From Halorubrum rubrum (GTDB lineage Archaea > Halobacteriota > Halobacteria > Halobacteriales > Haloferacaceae), in the NCBI RefSeq assembly GCF_024494685.1, contig NZ_JANHDM010000006.1:124001-188000 (forward strand): a stretch of 64,000 bases of DNA. The letters are read 5' to 3'. Numbering within the stretch: the first letter of the stretch is position 1; the number at the start of each line of letters is the position of its first letter. The translations under genes were made by a program, and so were the position numbers. Positions 2,055-19,816 of the stretch are shown one piece after another. The notes beneath the pieces are model-generated. The model was not told the DNA's origin, ran no database searches, and saw only the letters and a program-made list of their open reading frames with translations.

Positions 2055-2128
2055 GTCCGGGTTAGGGTAGTGGACTATCCTTCAGCCTTGTGGAGGCTGA
2101 GACGCGGGTTCGATTCTCGCACCCGGAC
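2055..2128 (+). tRNA. tRNA-His (GTG)
   Basis: Folds as a full cloverleaf. The acceptor is eight pairs, GTCCGGGT with ACCCGGAC, so the extra G at position -1 opposite C73 that marks tRNA-His is encoded. The D stem is GGGT/ATCC. The anticodon stem is CAGCC/GGCTG with loop TTGTGGA, giving anticodon GTG. The T-arm is GCGGG, loop TTCGATT, CTCGC. No CCA is encoded, as usual in haloarchaea, and there is no intron. The gene lies between the CBS membrane protein gene and aspS. Confidence 0.95.
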
Positions 2129-2163
2129 TTTCTGAGGAACGTAGTGACGAAGAAAGCTGGAAG

Positions 2164-2230
2164 GCGAGATCGAACCACGCGAGACGAGCGTTAGCGAGTC
2201 TCGCAATCGGGTTCGATTCTCGACCCGGAC
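2164..2230. repeat. Inverted and direct partial copies of the tRNA-His 3' part
   Basis: At 2164-2176 lies a reverse-complement copy of the tRNA-His T-arm (GCGAGATCGAACC, one base shorter than the exact complement). At 2205-2230 lies a direct copy of the T-arm 3' side and acceptor strand ending in ACCCGGAC, identical to the tRNA 3' end apart from small changes. Between them sits GACGAGCGTTAGCGAG (2183-2198). The same arrangement follows tRNA-Pro at 17460-17570. It may be an integration scar, a structured tRNA trailer or a repeat family; the sequence alone does not decide. Confidence 0.7.
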
Positions 2231-2327
2231 CTACACGGCGGAGCGGTGTTGCGTTTTCACCGGTTCTCAACACAACGAGAACCATCTGTCTCAGTTGACC
2301 GGAATCGGAGTGGGAGCGTTCCGGGCC

Positions 2328-11178: not shown

Positions 11179-14100
11179 ATGAGCGAGGACCGGACCATAC
11201 TGCTCATCGGTAGCGGACCGATCCAGATCGGACAGGCGGCGGAGTTCGACTACTCCGGGGCGCAGGCGTGTCGCGCGCTCCAAGAGGAAGGTGCGCGAGT
11301 CGTCCTCGTGAACTCGAACCCGGCGACGATCATGACCGATCCCGAGACCGCAGACCGGGTGTACATCGAACCGATCACGCCCGAGGCGATCGCGGAGGTC
11401 GTCCGGATCGAAGAGCCGGACGGCGTCATCGCCGGACTCGGCGGGCAGACCGGCCTCAACGTCACCGCCGAGCTCGCAGAACAGGGCATTCTGGAGGAAC
11501 ACGACGTCGAGGTGATGGGCACGCCGCTGGACACCATCTACGCGACGGAGGACCGCGACCTCTTCCGTCGGCGGATGGAGGACCTCGGCCAGCCCGTCCC
11601 GAAGTCGACGACCATCTCGCTCGACGAGGGCGAGTCGGTGGCCGCGCTGACCGAGGCGGACCTCGTCGACCGTGTTCGGGAGTCGGTCGACGCGGTTGGC
11701 GGCCTTCCCGTTATCGCCCGGACCACGTACACCCTCGGCGGCTCCGGCTCCGGAGTCGTCGACGACTTCGACGAGCTCGTCGAGCGCGTCCGCAAAGGGC
11801 TCCGGCTCTCGCGGAACAGCGAGGTGCTCATCACCGAGTCGATCTCCGGCTGGGTCGAGCTGGAGTACGAGGTGATGCGCGACGCCGACGACTCGTGTAT
11901 CATCATCTGTAACATGGAGAACATCGACCCGATGGGGATCCACACCGGCGAGTCCACCGTCGTCACCCCCTCGCAGGTGATCCCGGACGACGGCCACCAG
12001 GAGATGCGGGACGCGGCGCTCGAGGTCATCCGCGACCTCGGCATCCAGGGCGGCTGTAACATCCAGTTCGCGTGGCACGACGACGGCACGCCCGGCGGCG
12101 AGTACCGCGTCGTCGAGGTGAACCCGCGCGTCTCCCGCTCCTCCGCGCTGGCCTCGAAGGCGACCGGCTACCCGATCGCCCGCGTCACCGCGAAGGTCGC
12201 GCTCGGCAAGCGGCTCCACGAGATCGACAACGAGATCACGGGCGAGACGACGGCCGCGTTCGAGCCCGCCATCGACTACGTGGTGACGAAGGTGCCGCGC
12301 TGGCCCATCGACAAGTTCGACGACGTCGACTTCGAGCTCGGGACGGCGATGAAGTCGACCGGCGAGGCGATGTCGATCGGTCGGACGTTCGAGGAGAGCC
12401 TCACGAAGGCGCTCCGCTCCTCGGAGTACGATCCCGCCGTCGACTTCGCGGAGATCTCCGACGCGACGCTCGAAACGGAGTACCTCGAACGGCCGAGCCC
12501 CGACCGCCCGTACGCGATGTTCGAGGCCTTCGACCGCGGCTACAGCGTCGACGACGTGGTCGAGCTCACCGACATCCACCGGTGGTACGTCGAGCGCTTC
12601 GAGAACGTCGCCGACGCGACCGCGGCGGCCGCGGAGGGCGATTTCACCGCGGCCGCGATGGCCGGTCGGACGAACGCCGAGATCGCCGCGGTCGCGGGCG
12701 ACGGCGGGACGACCACTGAGGTCGGCGACGTCGAATCGACGGTCCCCGATCGAACGTTCAAGCAGGTCGACACCTGCGCGGGCGAGTTCGAGGCGTCGAC
12801 GCCGTACTACTACTCGGCCCGGCTCCCCGAGTTCCTCGCCGGGGCGGACACGGCCGGCGCGGCGAACGAGGTCCGCGTCGACCCCGACGTCGAGAGCGTC
12901 GTCGTCGTCGGCGGCGGTCCGATCCGGATCGGACAGGGCGTGGAGTTCGACTACTGCGCGGTCCACGCCGTTCGGGCGCTCCGCGAGCTCGGAATCGACG
13001 CCCACGTCGTCAACAACAACCCGGAGACCGTCTCGACGGACTACGACACCTCCGACGGGCTCTTCTTCGAGCCCATCTCCGCCGAGGAGATCGCGGACGT
13101 GATCGAGACGACGGGCGCGGACGGCGTGATGGTCCAGTTCGGCGGCCAGACCTCCGTGAACGTGGGCGAACCTCTTAAAGAAGAGATCGAGCGCCGCGGG
13201 CTCGACTGTTCGATCCTGGGCACGAGCGTCGAGGCGATGGACTTAGCCGAGGACCGCGACCGCTTCAACGTCCTGATGGACGAGATCGGCGTCACCCAGC
13301 CGGACGGCGGGACCGCGACGAGCCGCGAGGAGGCGCTCGATCTGGCCCATCGGATCGGCTACCCCGTCCTCGTGCGCCCCTCCTACGTGCTCGGCGGCCG
13401 CGCGATGCGGGTCGTCGACGACGACGCGGAGCTGGAGGAGTACATCGAGGAGGCGGTCCGCGTCTCCCCCGACAAGCCGATCCTGATCGATCAGTTCCTC
13501 GACGACGCGGTCGAACTCGACGTCGACGCCGTGGCCGACGGCGAGGACGTGCTGATCGGCGGCGTAATGGAGCACGTCGAGAGCGCGGGCGTCCACTCCG
13601 GCGACTCCGCGTGTATGATCCCGCCGCGCTCTCTCGGGGACGCGACGCTCGAACGGGTTCGAGAGGTGACCGAGGACATCGCCCGCGCGCTCGACACCGT
13701 CGGGCTGCTCAACGTCCAGCTCGCGGTGACGGGCGTTCACGACCCCGAATCGGACGCCGAGGTGTACGTCCTCGAGGCGAACCCTCGCTCCTCGCGGACG
13801 GTGCCGTTCGTCTCGAAGGCGACGGGCGTCCCGATCGCCAAGCTCGCGGCGAAGGTGATGACCGACGACGTGACCCTCGCCGACCTCGACGTCGACGAGC
13901 AGATCCCGGAGCACCTGAGCGTGAAGGAGGTCGTCCTACCGTTCGACCGCCTGCCGGGCTCGGACCCGCGGCTCGGTCCCGAGATGAAATCGACCGGCGA
14001 GGTGATGGGCACCGCGCGCTCGTTCGGGAAGGCGTACGACAAGGCGCAGGACTCGACCGGCAAGCCGATCCCCGAGTCGGGCACCGCCGTCGTCGACCTC

Positions 14101-15994: not shown

Positions 15995-16034
15995 TCGACC
16001 GAGCGGCTCGGCGCGCCCGTCCGGGGTGCTCGTC

Positions 16035-16256
16035 TCAGTCGATCCGGAACCGGTCGGGTCGGTCGTCGCTGCCGTCGCCGTCGGATCGGTCGCCAGCCGA
16101 CCGGTCGCCGTCACCGACGCCCGACGTCTCCGCACAGGGGGTACACGCGCCCACTCGCTCGTTCCAGTGGTCTCGGCAGACCTGCCGTCCGCAGTACCGA
16201 CAGGTGTGCCGGGCCGGGGCGTTCTCACAGATCTGACAGAGTCCGGTGACGCTCAT
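16035..16256 (-). CDS. Small HIT-type zinc-finger protein
   Basis: A 73-residue protein. Residues 7-42 hold CQICENAPARHTCRYCGRQVC and then CRDHW and CTPC, eight possible Cys/His ligands in a treble-clef arrangement like the zf-HIT family. The C-terminal third is an acidic, Ser/Gly/Asp-rich tail ending DRPDRFRID. The start at 16256 gives MSVTGLCQIC; longer upstream frames in the same phase are Arg-rich and not credible. It is divergent from trmY, with 50 bases between the starts. Function unknown. Confidence 0.75.
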   Translation of the reverse strand: MSVTGLCQICENAPARHTCRYCGRQVCRDHWNERVGACTPCAETSGVGDGDRSAGDRSDGDGSDDRPDRFRID

Positions 16257-16306
16257 GGTCGACCGTCGGCCGGGTCGCTTATCACGGTTCGGGCGGACCG
16301 ACGCGT

Positions 16307-16903
16307 ATGCGCCAGTTCGTCGTCGTCGGCCACGACGTCCCCACCGACCCGAACGCGATCTCGCTCTCGGACATCCCCGGTGCGGGTCGGCTCGACCTCC
16401 TCTGTCGGTGCGTGTCGACCGGCGTCTTCCTCTCACACGGCATCCGCGAGGAGTCGCAAGTCCACCTCGTCTGTGCCGACGAGCTCACCGTCACGTTCGA
16501 CGCTGCGACTCTCCGAAACCTCCATCCCGACGAGCGGAACGTCGCCGCTCGGGTCCGCGACGCGCTCGCCGCTCGCGAGAACGCGATCGGCCACATGCCG
16601 GCGGACGTCTCTCCCGGCGTGGAGCTGCGTCGGATGGGACTGGAGGCGACGCTCGAACGGCTGGCCGACGACGGAACGCTCTTCCAGCTCCACGAGGCGG
16701 GCGACCCGCTCGTCGACGCGGAGCCGCCGGCCGACCCGGTGTTCGTCCTCTCGGACCACCACGACTTCTCGGAGGCGGAGTCGAGACTGCTCGCGGCGGC
16801 GTGCGACCGGCGGCTCCGCGTCGGCCCCGAGCGACTCCACGCCGACCACACCGTCTCGGTCGTCCACAACTGGCTCGACACCGACGGCTACACCGCGTAC
16901 TGA
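16307..16903 (+). CDS. trmY: tRNA (pseudouridine-54 N1)-methyltransferase TrmY
   Basis: A SPOUT-class S-adenosylmethionine methyltransferase that makes 1-methylpseudouridine at position 54 in the T-loop of archaeal tRNAs. The 198-residue product starts MRQFVVVGHDVPTDP and continues LSDIPGAGRLDLLCRC, the family N-terminus. The knot region is FVLSDHHDFSEAESRLL. The length matches characterised TrmY proteins. A CHY zinc-finger gene follows 19 bases downstream on the same strand and may be co-transcribed. Confidence 0.92.
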   Translation: MRQFVVVGHDVPTDPNAISLSDIPGAGRLDLLCRCVSTGVFLSHGIREESQVHLVCADELTVTFDAATLRNLHPDERNVAARVRDALAARENAIGHMPADVSPGVELRRMGLEATLERLADDGTLFQLHEAGDPLVDAEPPADPVFVLSDHHDFSEAESRLLAAACDRRLRVGPERLHADHTVSVVHNWLDTDGYTAY

Positions 16904-16922
16904 ACCGGGGTCGGGTGACGAG

Positions 16923-17297
16923 ATGAGCGACGCCGACGCGACGCGGACGACGCACGCCCCCGCGGTCGACGATCGATTCCCCGTCCCCCTCCGCGGGGTG
17001 GCGGTCGACCTCCGGACCCGGTGTACCCACTGGGACTCCGCGGTCGACGTGGTCGCCCTGCGGTTCGGCTGCTGTGGAACGTACTATCCGTGTGCGAGCT
17101 GTCACGACGAGACGGCGGACCACGGCGCGGAGCCGTGGCCCCGCGACCGGTTCGACGAACCCGCGGCGTTCTGCGGGCGCTGTCGCGGGCGGCTGAGCGC
17201 CCGCGAGTACCTCGACCGCGACGACGCCTGCCCGCGCTGCGGGGCCGCGTTCAACCCCGGCTGTCGGTCACACCGGGATCGGTACTTCGAACCGTGA
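16923..17297 (+). CDS. CHY zinc-finger protein
   Basis: A 124-residue protein with the CHY-type zinc-binding pattern: RCTHWDSAVDVVALRFGCC, then YYPCASCHDE, CGRCRGRLSAREYL, CPRCGAAFNPGC and RSHRDRYF. The many Cys and His residues would bind about three zinc ions. CHY fingers occur in eukaryotic RCHY1 and in stand-alone archaeal and bacterial proteins; the role of the stand-alone form is not established. It follows trmY by 19 bases. The start ATG at 16923 is the nearest to the conserved region and avoids overlap with trmY. Confidence 0.88.
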   Translation: MSDADATRTTHAPAVDDRFPVPLRGVAVDLRTRCTHWDSAVDVVALRFGCCGTYYPCASCHDETADHGAEPWPRDRFDEPAAFCGRCRGRLSAREYLDRDDACPRCGAAFNPGCRSHRDRYFEP

Positions 17298-17366
17298 ACG
17301 GCCGTCATCCCCGACCGCCCCCGTTTTCGGAAGGATTAAAAGAACGAACGGCCTCCGTTGGGATGC

Positions 17367-17439
17367 GGGCCGGTGGGGTAGCTTGGTATCCTTCGGCCTT
17401 CGGGTGGCCGTAACCACGATTCAAATTCGTGCCGGCCCA
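17367..17439 (+). tRNA. tRNA-Pro (CGG)
   Basis: Full cloverleaf: the acceptor is GGGCCGG with CCGGCCC and discriminator A. The D stem is GGGT/ATCC. The anticodon stem is CGGCC/GGCCG with loop TTCGGGT, giving anticodon CGG and G at position 37. The T-arm is CACGA, loop TTCAAAT, TCGTG. No CCA is encoded and no intron is seen. It marks the left border of the lower-GC accessory stretch. Confidence 0.95.
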
Positions 17440-17459
17440 TTTTCACCCCACTTCGCAAC

Positions 17460-17570
17460 GACGAGCGCTAGCGAGGAGTCCGTAGCGGGCGTGAAACTGT
17501 CGCCGGGCGAATTTGAATCAGGGAGCAAATCTTCGATTTGCGACCGTGATTCAATATTCGTGCCGGCCCA
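17460..17570. repeat. Inverted and direct partial copies of the tRNA-Pro 3' part
   Basis: Downstream of tRNA-Pro, GACGAGCGCTAGCGAG (17460-17475) matches the element behind tRNA-His at 15 of 16 positions. CGAATTTGAATC (17508-17519) is the exact reverse complement of the T-arm core. A hairpin GCAAATC-TTC-GATTTGC lies at 17525-17541. A direct copy of the T-arm plus acceptor 3' strand, ending TGCCGGCCCA, lies at 17548-17570 with one inserted base. This parallels the arrangement behind tRNA-His. Confidence 0.75.
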
Positions 17571-17639
17571 TAGGATACATATACCGTTTCCACCTTTTTC
17601 GTACACGTAGCGACGCTCTCGCGCCGCCTCGGGAGGCGG

Positions 17640-17757
17640 AGAACTGAGCAGCGTCAGCTTCGCGATCCCCGACGGACACAGCCACAGCTGATCTCTCGTG
17701 TCCGATAGCGTTCTGTATGAGATTCTCCAGAAGACGCCGAAGCCGATCGCTATCCGC
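17640..17757 (-). pseudogene. Relic of a histidine-kinase ATP-binding domain (N-box)
   Basis: Just after the stop of the sensor gene at 17750, another minus-strand frame encodes RADSDRLRRLLENLIQNAIG, followed by AVAVSVGDRE. This is the N-box region of a HATPase_c domain as found in haloarchaeal PAS-histidine kinases. The HisKA region that should precede it and the G boxes that should follow it are absent. The relic is one frame off the upstream sensor gene. It looks like what remains after a deletion that removed the dimerisation/His region and most of the kinase domain. Confidence 0.7.
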
Positions 17758-19816
17758 CCGAACCGTTCGATCCGTCTCGATTGTCGATGTCCTGCTCGTA
17801 CTCCATCCGCTCTGTGATATCGCGGCCAAGCGCGATGAATCGCTCTTCATCTTTGAATTCGAATTTCGTAGCCCAGACCTCGACCGGGAACGTAGACCCG
17901 TCCTTACGTCGGTGTTCGCCCTCAACTTTGATGCGCTCCCCCGGATCGAGACTCGTCCAGAGGTTCTGTAACTCGTCACGCGAGTGGCCGATTTCATAGT
18001 CAGCGACATTCATCGAGCACAACTCCTCGCGCGAATACCCGAGGGTCTCGACGTTCTGCTCGTTCACCTCGATGATGTCTCCATTCACATCGTGGACGGC
18101 AATCGCGTCCGGCGAGCTCTCGAACAGCGCGCGCCAGCGATCCCGGCTCCGATCGAGTTCCCTCTCTCGGTCTTTCCGCTCAGTGATGTCCACGTTGACC
18201 GCGACGAAGCGTTCGATCTCGCCGGATTCGTCTTCGACCGGTGCGATCGTCTGGTCAACCACGTACCGCTCGCCTGACTTCGACTGGTTCACGAGTTCGT
18301 TCCGCCAGACTTCGCCCGCTAGAATCGTCTCCCACATCTCCTCATAGAATTCCACATCCTGTTCCCCCGACTGGAGGATGCGCGGGTTCTCGCCGATCGC
18401 CTCGTCGGCCGTATACCCTGTCGTCTCTTCGAACGCAGAGTTGACGTATCTGATAGTGCCGTCTGTATCAGTGAAATAGATGGAATGACCGGCCGTTTCG
18501 ACGGCGTTCTGGAAGACACGGAGTTGTCGCTCGCGCTCCTTGCGCTTCGTGACGTCTTTGATAATTCCGTCAAAGTATATCTCGTCGTCTTCTTCGGTAC
18601 ACATCGCGGTGACCGCCACCCAAATATCGTTACCAGTGACCGTCACCTGGCGTAATTCCATCTCTCGAACGATACACTCCTCTCGGAGTTGCTGACTCAG
18701 CTCGACCCGTTCTTCGGGATCGGCGTAGAACTCCGTCACCTCTCGCCCGACCATCTCGTCGGGTGACTCGGCGCCGAACATCTCGGCAAGAGCGGGATTC
18801 GCGTCGAGAATTCGGCCGGCTGCTCCGGGTGTTGCCCGATAGATACCAACGGGGAGGTTCTCGATGACACGTTCGTAGCGACGCTGGTCGGCACGGGTCT
18901 CGGCGTGTGAGATCGCGTGAGAAATATCTCCAGCAAGTTCGTCAAGTAACTCCTGTTCCCGGTCGTCGAATGCGTACGTCCGCTCGGCATAGACGTTCAA
19001 CACGCCGTACTGTGTGTCACCATAGACGAGCGGAATCGCAGCACTCGACTGGTACCCGCGTTCGAGCGCGTCCTCGCGCCACGGCTCGTACTCGTCGTTT
19101 TCCCGAATGTTCTGTACGACTGTGAGTTCGCGGGTACGAACGGCATGGCCGGTGGGTCTTTCTCCCGTCACGCTCTCGTCGATCGTTATGTCGATGGCGT
19201 CGAGATACCCCTCTTCGATACCAGCAGTGGCCCGTGGCTGGACGGTTTGCGAGTCCGGGTCGTACTCACCGATCCACGCGAATCGATACGGGTCGGCCTT
19301 GCTGATGATCTCACAGACGCTCGATTCGATTTCGTCGCGGGTTTCCACTCGGACGAGCGCTTGATTCACATCCCGGAGAACACGACGTACCCGTTCGAGA
19401 TTCTCTGCGCGCCGTGTTGCTCGATGTTGCTGGACGGCGTTCAGGACGCGGTTCGCCAAGAGGTCATACTGCCCGGTACCGGATTCTTTCTGGAGGTAAT
19501 CGGTGACGCCCCGAGCGATCGCTTCGCTGGCCACTTCTTCGCTGCCCTTGCCAGTATACAGGATGAACGGAAGGTCGTCGTACTCCTCGCGGACGGCATC
19601 AAGGAAGTCGAGACCGTCCCGCTTCGGCATGTCGTAGTCAGAGATGACGCAGTCGAAGTTTCCCTCCCGGAGACGGTCTACGCCCTCGGTTGCGCTCGTC
19701 GTTGTTTCGACGCGGAGACGGTCGTCACTCCGTTCGAGAAAATTCGCGGTCAGCTCGGCGAGATCCGGTTCATCATCAACGTGGAGGACCCGGACCGATC
19801 CATGCCGGTCGCTCAT
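17750..19816 (-). CDS. Receiver-GAF-PAS3 sensor protein, kinase lost
   Basis: A 688-residue signal-transduction protein. The receiver domain (about 7-120) has the acidic pair in VDDEPD, phospho-acceptor Asp60 in CVISDYDMP, and the Lys in YLQKES. A GAF domain follows at about 150-300 (FAWIGEYDPDSQTV, then IPLVYGDTQYGVLNVYAE). Three PAS domains then occupy about 313-430, 436-555 and 562-670, each ending in a DITER or DVTKR PAC signature. The protein stops ITERMEYEQDIDNRDGSNGSGG without HisKA or HATPase domains, and the relic at 17640-17757 shows where they were. It may be a non-catalytic sensor or an inactive remnant. The GC content is lower than in core genes. Confidence 0.85.
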   Translation of the reverse strand: MSDRHGSVRVLHVDDEPDLAELTANFLERSDDRLRVETTTSATEGVDRLREGNFDCVISDYDMPKRDGLDFLDAVREEYDDLPFILYTGKGSEEVASEAIARGVTDYLQKESGTGQYDLLANRVLNAVQQHRATRRAENLERVRRVLRDVNQALVRVETRDEIESSVCEIISKADPYRFAWIGEYDPDSQTVQPRATAGIEEGYLDAIDITIDESVTGERPTGHAVRTRELTVVQNIRENDEYEPWREDALERGYQSSAAIPLVYGDTQYGVLNVYAERTYAFDDREQELLDELAGDISHAISHAETRADQRRYERVIENLPVGIYRATPGAAGRILDANPALAEMFGAESPDEMVGREVTEFYADPEERVELSQQLREECIVREMELRQVTVTGNDIWVAVTAMCTEEDDEIYFDGIIKDVTKRKERERQLRVFQNAVETAGHSIYFTDTDGTIRYVNSAFEETTGYTADEAIGENPRILQSGEQDVEFYEEMWETILAGEVWRNELVNQSKSGERYVVDQTIAPVEDESGEIERFVAVNVDITERKDRERELDRSRDRWRALFESSPDAIAVHDVNGDIIEVNEQNVETLGYSREELCSMNVADYEIGHSRDELQNLWTSLDPGERIKVEGEHRRKDGSTFPVEVWATKFEFKDEERFIALGRDITERMEYEQDIDNRDGSNGSGG

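Follow-up and report, generated by a model that had tools for sequence, protein, structure and literature searches.

The window, a stretch of 64,000 nucleotides from Halorubrum rubrum (contig NZ_JANHDM010000006.1, positions 124,001 to 188,000 of the forward strand), contains a tRNA-Pro gene and a tRNA-His gene, each followed by a short unit whose far end repeats the 3' end of that tRNA. The tRNA-Pro gene is absent from the Rfam tRNA search of the genome and was found by ARAGORN; it is flanked by genes for a CHY zinc-finger protein (16026-17297, + strand) and a response regulator/GAF/PAS protein (17750-19816, - strand). The features of this locus are:

17367..17439, + strand: tRNA-Pro(CGG), the gene whose 3' end is duplicated (ARAGORN)
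17440..17570, + strand: tRNA-Pro unit, 131 nt, set between the 3' end of the tRNA and the DNA that follows (present or absent in congeners)
17441..17496, + strand: hairpin 1 of the unit, with the 16-mer 17460-17475 at its tip (RNA fold)
17502..17567, + strand: hairpin 2 of the unit, closed by the antiT and the T-arm/acceptor copy (RNA and DNA fold)
17508..17519, + strand: antiT (CGAATTTGAATC), exact reverse complement of the T-arm core (sequence comparison)
17548..17570, + strand: second copy, in direct orientation, of the T-arm and 3' acceptor strand; one base inserted (sequence comparison)
17571..17655, + strand: left-end remnant of a larger integrated element, 3' of the unit (congener matches, query 548-655)

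The template of the antiT is the T-arm core at 17418-17429, and the direct copy is identical at 22 of 23 positions, the inserted base being 17555. A sequence-only reading of this DNA had proposed an inverted and a direct T-arm copy behind tRNA-Pro, and sequence comparison confirms both, allowing for the inserted base. Hairpin 1 begins one base past the tRNA. The RNA fold of the unit (17441-17571) has an energy of -58.4 kcal/mol with a z-score of -5.25 (0 of 200 shuffles), and hairpin 2 forms the same stem when folded as DNA on both strands (z -4.80 and -4.98). An Rfam search of 17340-17620 gives no match up to E=1. The 131-nt unit is also present in three congeners (G006, G008 and G014), with a 130-nt version in a fourth (G023). 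Across the five genomes the unit is 93-98% identical, compared with 78-91% for the adjoining 70 nt, which points to lateral sharing or constraint.

The tRNA-His trailer is organised like that of tRNA-Pro:

2055..2129, + strand: tRNA-His(GTG) (ARAGORN)
2130..2230, + strand: tRNA-linked unit 3' of tRNA-His (filled, empty and tandem forms in congeners)
2165..2176, + strand: antiT of tRNA-His, one base short of a perfect complement (sequence comparison)
2209..2230, + strand: second copy, in direct orientation, of the T-arm and 3' acceptor strand of tRNA-His; one base deleted (sequence comparison)
2231..2293, + strand: left-end remnant of an element with an integrase, found directly 3' of tRNA-His in G026 (congener comparison, L286)

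Both units of the window adjoin left-end remnants of different larger elements, which in congeners directly follow the same tRNA.

Units within the Halorubrum rubrum genome

The genome was surveyed at 46 tRNAs, two doubtful intron calls being left out, for direct copies of the tRNA 3' end (score of at least 13 within 400 nt) and for inverted copies before them (score of at least 8). Fifteen of the 46 tRNAs have their own 3' end directly copied within 400 nt downstream, and in 12 of these 15 an inverted copy comes first, so that the structure extends well beyond the two genes at which it was first noticed. No direct copy was found in 40 dinucleotide-shuffled sets of trailers, which excludes chance as the source of the 3' end copies. 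Direct copies are also absent 401-900 nt downstream (0 of 31), and the 200 nt upstream yield one match, which is a tandem tRNA-Asp gene. Among the 15 positives, the first tRNA-Asp is followed by a whole tandem tRNA gene rather than by a unit, and two Gly cases are degenerate. The tRNAs with copies include those for Asp, Gln, Leu(tag), Lys, Arg(gcg), Leu(taa), Phe, Val(cac), Arg(tct), Val(tac), His and Pro. Apart from these, a unit-like match lies at G000:C20:204159-204225, away from the tRNAs found by the Rfam search.

The two trailers of the window share a 16-mer, which had been suggested as a mark of the family. The sharing itself is real: GACGAGCGYTAGCGAG has exactly two exact matches in the 3.2-Mb genome, at 17460-17475 and 2183-2198. 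Its position differs: the tRNA-Pro unit has it in hairpin 1, ahead of the inverted copy, and the tRNA-His unit in the hairpin-2 loop, past the inverted copy. When two mismatches are allowed, 57 matches are found, against 40 for the reversed control. With two exact sites in non-equivalent positions, and a relaxed form near the control level, the 16-mer was rejected as a defining mark; it belongs to a common type of hairpin tip.

Anatomy of the unit and selection on its fold

The units share a layout of tRNA end, hairpin 1 and hairpin 2, and span roughly 80-180 nt (mostly 79-188 nt). In hairpin 2 the 5' arm is the complement of about nt 52-63 of the tRNA, and the 3' arm repeats nt 52-73. A profile was built from 89 distinct haloarchaeal units of 20 isoacceptors, bacterial loci being left out. 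Per-position agreement of the inverted arm in this profile is 0.84-0.98 over nt 52-62, apart from 0.35 at nt 53; it falls to 0.64 for nt 63 and does not rise above background past nt 65. The direct copy spans nt 52-73 with a per-position identity of 0.71-0.92. The unit sets were largely picked via T-arm patterns, and the pairing at the pattern positions is set by that selection. The loops of hairpin 2 fall into recurring subtypes that are found at different tRNAs.

The two arms vary together. In a hand count over 52 genomes, less biased by the choice of rows than the covariation below and with near-palindromic matches appearing on both strands, T copies GTTCAAATC stand with the matching GATTTGAA arm in at least 98 places and with the GATTCGAA arm in 12 (tRNA-Ser-internal and two unrelated matches left out), and the opposite mix of arm and copy occurs in three more places. 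The antiT is mismatched to the T copy at nt 57 in about 15 loci of the 52 genomes. Matched arms far outnumber mixed ones, which indicates that the inverted arm follows its own tRNA.

Covariation was measured on one hairpin-2 subtype, represented by 20 sequences. Its inner helix contains 26 two-sided changed cells, compared with 8.1 in shuffled alignments, and the covariation score is 0.247 against a shuffled value of 0.077 (sd 0.014), reached in 0 of 500 shuffles; slid controls give a maximum of 0.086. A second set of 12 sequences gives 0.273 against 0.108, the columns 5/63 pair being preset by the choice of rows. These compensatory changes argue that hairpin 2 is under selection as a single strand, either RNA or DNA, and covariation of this kind cannot separate RNA from single-stranded DNA. 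One explanation, possible though on the unlikely side, is that the units are kept for a function at the RNA level, as small RNAs, processing signals or tRNA-folding safeguards within the trailer, the distal copy marking a processing end and the polymorphism among genomes being secondary. The compensatory changes in hairpin 2 and the strong RNA fold of the tRNA-Pro unit speak in its favour, while the presence of identical loop families at different tRNAs is harder to fit with it.

Distribution across genomes

Of 293 genomes in the order, 185 contain the pattern GGATTCGAA-(20 to 50)-GGTTCGAATCC, and none contains its backward control. In a phylum-wide sample the same pattern occurs in 24 of 196 genomes, all of them among the 33 belonging to the same order; in the 163 genomes outside the order this T-loop pattern gave no match. 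Within the genus, 47 of 52 genomes have the TTCAAATC version, and none has a match to the control. A pattern scan of genome contigs returned at least 119 stretches, and the haloarchaeal matches again lie behind tRNAs.

It had been asked whether the structure might occur at random sites as often as at tRNAs. Thirty order-wide loci were fetched, and in 26 of them a same-strand tRNA lies within 300 nt upstream. Of the other four, two come after another unit or the 3' fragment of a tRNA, one is 2.4 kb behind a tRNA-Leu and a first unit, and one is within a gene and looks like chance. The proposal of a class of tRNA-linked elements is therefore upheld: the units occur at many isoacceptors and in most of the haloarchaeal genomes sampled, each copying its own tRNA.

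That each unit copies its own tRNA could also be accounted for by template switching at forks stalled near tRNA genes, in which the T-arm would be copied first inverted and then directly, with no element involved. A 32-nt inverted repeat of 75% identity that extends past the tRNA end at tRNA-Pro is in keeping with this. De novo switching does not, however, provide loops and hairpin families common to several tRNAs and genomes, and the tested version of the unit is confined to one order. Within the H. rubrum genome the Gln and Leu(tag) units are nearly identical in their loops, which are common to both up to the last bases before the copy, and this argues against template switching as the sole cause. 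It is regarded as the least probable of the explanations considered here.

Several further groups of matches were set aside. Bacterial matches in the contig scan were dropped, most being inside tRNA-Ser(cga). Plasmid matches were dropped since the query overlapped tRNA-Asp, and the two examined of nine are plasmid tRNA genes. Viral spread was considered and rejected: one viral contig only, with a tRNA-Glu followed by two units, was found, and the TTCAAATC form has no viral matches.

Some bacterial tRNA trailers also carry an inverted T-arm and direct 3' copies, in tandem in some cases (L118, L121, L128, L188, L198 and L202); their hosts are Lachnospiraceae, Butyricicoccus, Spirochaeta and others. 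The Rfam matches at two of these loci (L128 and L198) are limited to tRNA, SRP and weak plastid-model overlaps.

Filled and empty sites and tandem arrays

At tRNA-Pro, filled and empty sites can be compared directly. In many congeners the tRNA is followed immediately by CTTCTCCCGCA, and in G006, G008 and G014 the 131-nt unit stands between the tRNA and CTTCTCCCGCA. In five others (G018, G010, G005, G020 and G025) the tRNA is followed by TAGGATAC, which is the left end of another element; in the H. rubrum genome studied here the unit stands between the tRNA and TAGGATAC. At tRNA-His, four genomes are empty (G026, G140, G005 and G010), and the matches of the two flanks overlap by 23-24 nt, the length of one T-arm/acceptor copy. 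Comparison of these sequences indicates that units come and go among related species and are precisely present or absent. Recombination between the repeats would remove a unit just as precisely, so these sites fit gain and loss alike.

Thirty His loci were classified by eye. Seventeen have a unit with its copy, nine have hairpin-2 remnants without a copy, and four have no unit, one of these four stopping at a contig edge. The remnants at nine of 30 loci suggest that decay is common. This patchy presence at one tRNA in one genus, with its many decayed copies, is evidence against a strong conserved need for a trailer RNA there. Two of the His loci (L284 and L288) have a different loop subtype, and one genome (G018, L262) has two tandem His units.

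Tandem arrays also occur elsewhere, with four units at a spacing of 111 nt in G026, three at 106 nt and three at 102 nt in G283, and several units at tRNA-Lys in G006. At L239 two units have a common hairpin 1 and differing hairpin-2 loops, and at the tRNA-Lys locus of G006 (L252) two types of hairpin 1 are combined with three types of hairpin 2; this mixing of types indicates that arrays reassort.

The sequence-only reading had envisaged a process that repeatedly generates the structure, by recombination, reverse transcription or integrase action. The precise filled and empty sites point to recombination or insertion as such a process; reverse transcription, or integrase action on the units, stays a conjecture.

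Larger elements at the same tRNA ends

Integrase genes, which the sequence-only reading proposed to seek next to occupied sites, are found beside some units, although they belong to larger elements in their own right that are integrated at the same tRNA ends. In G023 the 130-nt Pro unit sits after an integrated 12-kb element, and at L077 of this genome an integrase gene lies at 11768-12841 (PF00589). At L258 (G053) broken integrase-like ORFs lie between two units, and at L286 (G026) there is an integrase-like start, both judged by eye; at L259 an integrase (PF00589) lies beside an attR and a unit.

Elements of this kind suggest that the units might be leftover attachment sites of proviruses, plasmids or other larger tRNA-integrated elements after internal deletion, and their position at the same tRNA ends, next to units (L077, L258 and L286), fits with this. 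The attR of L077, whose core is short (about 13-14 nt), nevertheless lacks an inverted T-arm, as does the first attR at L259, so that these elements are not evident parents of the units. Random deletion remnants would likewise not be expected to share one two-hairpin anatomy across many tRNAs or to stand in tandem. This origin is considered improbable.

Comparison with known systems

In E. coli, tRNA-linked repeats (TLRs) have been known since 1978, and in the available text of PMC8144298 their origin and function are described as unsettled. That account counts 22 genes at ten loci, with one to five per locus, whose last 18-19 bp match exactly the 3' end of the preceding tRNA or rRNA (PMC8144298). 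The rrA, rrB and rrF repeats give transcripts, which bind Hfq and CsrA in vitro, and rrB is processed to a small RNA (PMC8144298); no function beyond this sRNA work on the three repeats is given in the same portion of that source. Both this transcription and binding, and the annotated small RNA RttR that arises from the E. coli layout, favour an RNA-level function of the archaeal units.

At tyrT-tyrV of E. coli MG1655 (L292), where Rfam places three RtT units, both tRNA-Tyr flanks have an inverted T-arm/acceptor stretch (score 13) 57-60 nt past the tRNA, a structured core and a direct 3' copy. The repeat at rrnB has a direct copy but no comparable inverted copy. The available text of PMC8144298 makes no mention of an inverted T-arm/acceptor in E. 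coli TLRs.

Archaeal units and TLRs/RtT alike lie immediately 3' of a tRNA, end distally in the tRNA 3' end, and occur as one to several tandem copies per locus. The copy is 18-19 bp long in E. coli and about 21-24 nt in the archaeal units, which lack a tRNA-encoded CCA and have a shorter core and another sequence. The archaeal T copy starts from nt 52, whereas the tyrT copies begin after the T-loop, and E. coli TLRs are also found behind 5S rRNA. The RtT model (RF00391) matches 0 of 25 haloarchaeal genomes and, among 14 controls, E. coli only. The layout is thus common to both, and sequence homology is unsupported. The archaeal units have a TLR-like layout without being RtT members, and they may work in a similar way.

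Haloquadratum has PATEs and small mobile repeats, which are short and transposase-free; the PATEs, compared here together with IS605-type MITEs, have near-terminal palindromes and no target duplication (PMC3119063). The units are likewise short archaeal elements without a transposase, but are flanked on both sides by the tRNA repeat of about 21-24 nt, and tRNA targeting is not described for PATEs in the part of PMC3119063 available. Like tRNA-associated genomic islands, the units repeat the 3' part of a tRNA at their far end; unlike them, they are too short for an integrase gene, possess an inverted T-arm, and are specific to their own tRNA at many tRNAs at once. In its available part, a review of archaeal tyrosine recombinases describes tRNA attB sites and no such units (PMC8371274), and no report of such units in archaea was found in the open-licence literature.

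Interpretation

The best reading, given about an even chance of being right, is that the units are tRNA-linked repeats of archaea: they carry no gene, insert or expand precisely at tRNA 3' ends, and repeat nt 52-73 at their distal end. This reading draws on the location at tRNAs only, the own-tRNA specificity, the two hairpins, the filled and empty sites, the reassorted arrays, the shared loops, the selection on hairpin 2 and the confinement of the tested version to one order. Against it, neither an enzyme nor a circular form nor a fresh insertion came to light, the empty sites could be deletions between direct repeats, and the tandem copies could arise by unequal crossing-over. Trailer-RNA function is the main rival, and the two can coexist.

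In the attC sites of integrons and the attP of CTX-phi, two inverted core-like sites fold into an imperfect hairpin, which rebuilds a double-stranded target. Hairpin 2 of the archaeal unit is likewise an imperfect, structurally constrained hairpin of inverted core-like sites, and the units form tandem arrays at a fixed target. They differ from integrons in being gene-less and made of hairpins, in having the tRNA T-arm/acceptor as target, and in that each array fits its own tRNA.

On the insertion-unit reading, exchanging strands at the T-arm/acceptor repeat would let units move or multiply. By pairing with it, the inverted T-arm would turn the T-arm/acceptor copy of a single-stranded unit into a duplex that imitates the tRNA target, by the same folding logic as attC or attP. 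Since the inverted copy is at background beyond nt 65, such a folded site mimics the target only in part. A recombinase, if any, would act in trans. Once inserted, the unit would form the trailer of the pre-tRNA, where the hairpin may keep the second acceptor strand from competing during tRNA folding. The folding step appears supported by the covariation, and mobility by the precise polymorphism and the spread across tRNAs; we infer the enzyme and the nucleic acid of unit movement.

A bolder extension, which is unlikely, would make this a gene-less integron-like system. Folded single-stranded cassettes would counterfeit, in hairpin 2, the T-arm/acceptor of one tRNA, a trans-acting recombinase would stack them downstream of it, and retargeting to a different tRNA would swap both arms at once; tRNA 3' ends would serve as attI-like platforms across the archaeal order, with the E. 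coli TLRs as a bacterial branch.

A TLR-like layout in an archaeal order, together with natural filled and empty pairs and strong covariation, opens an old E. coli puzzle to comparison and experiment. How units come to track their own tRNA at many tRNAs is something that every proposed mechanism of spread has to account for. The units also place extra copies of common integration sites beside essential genes.

As a separate observation, two haloarchaeal megaplasmids (L256 and L257) carry dense tRNA clusters, with 9 and 13 ARAGORN tRNAs in 6 kb.
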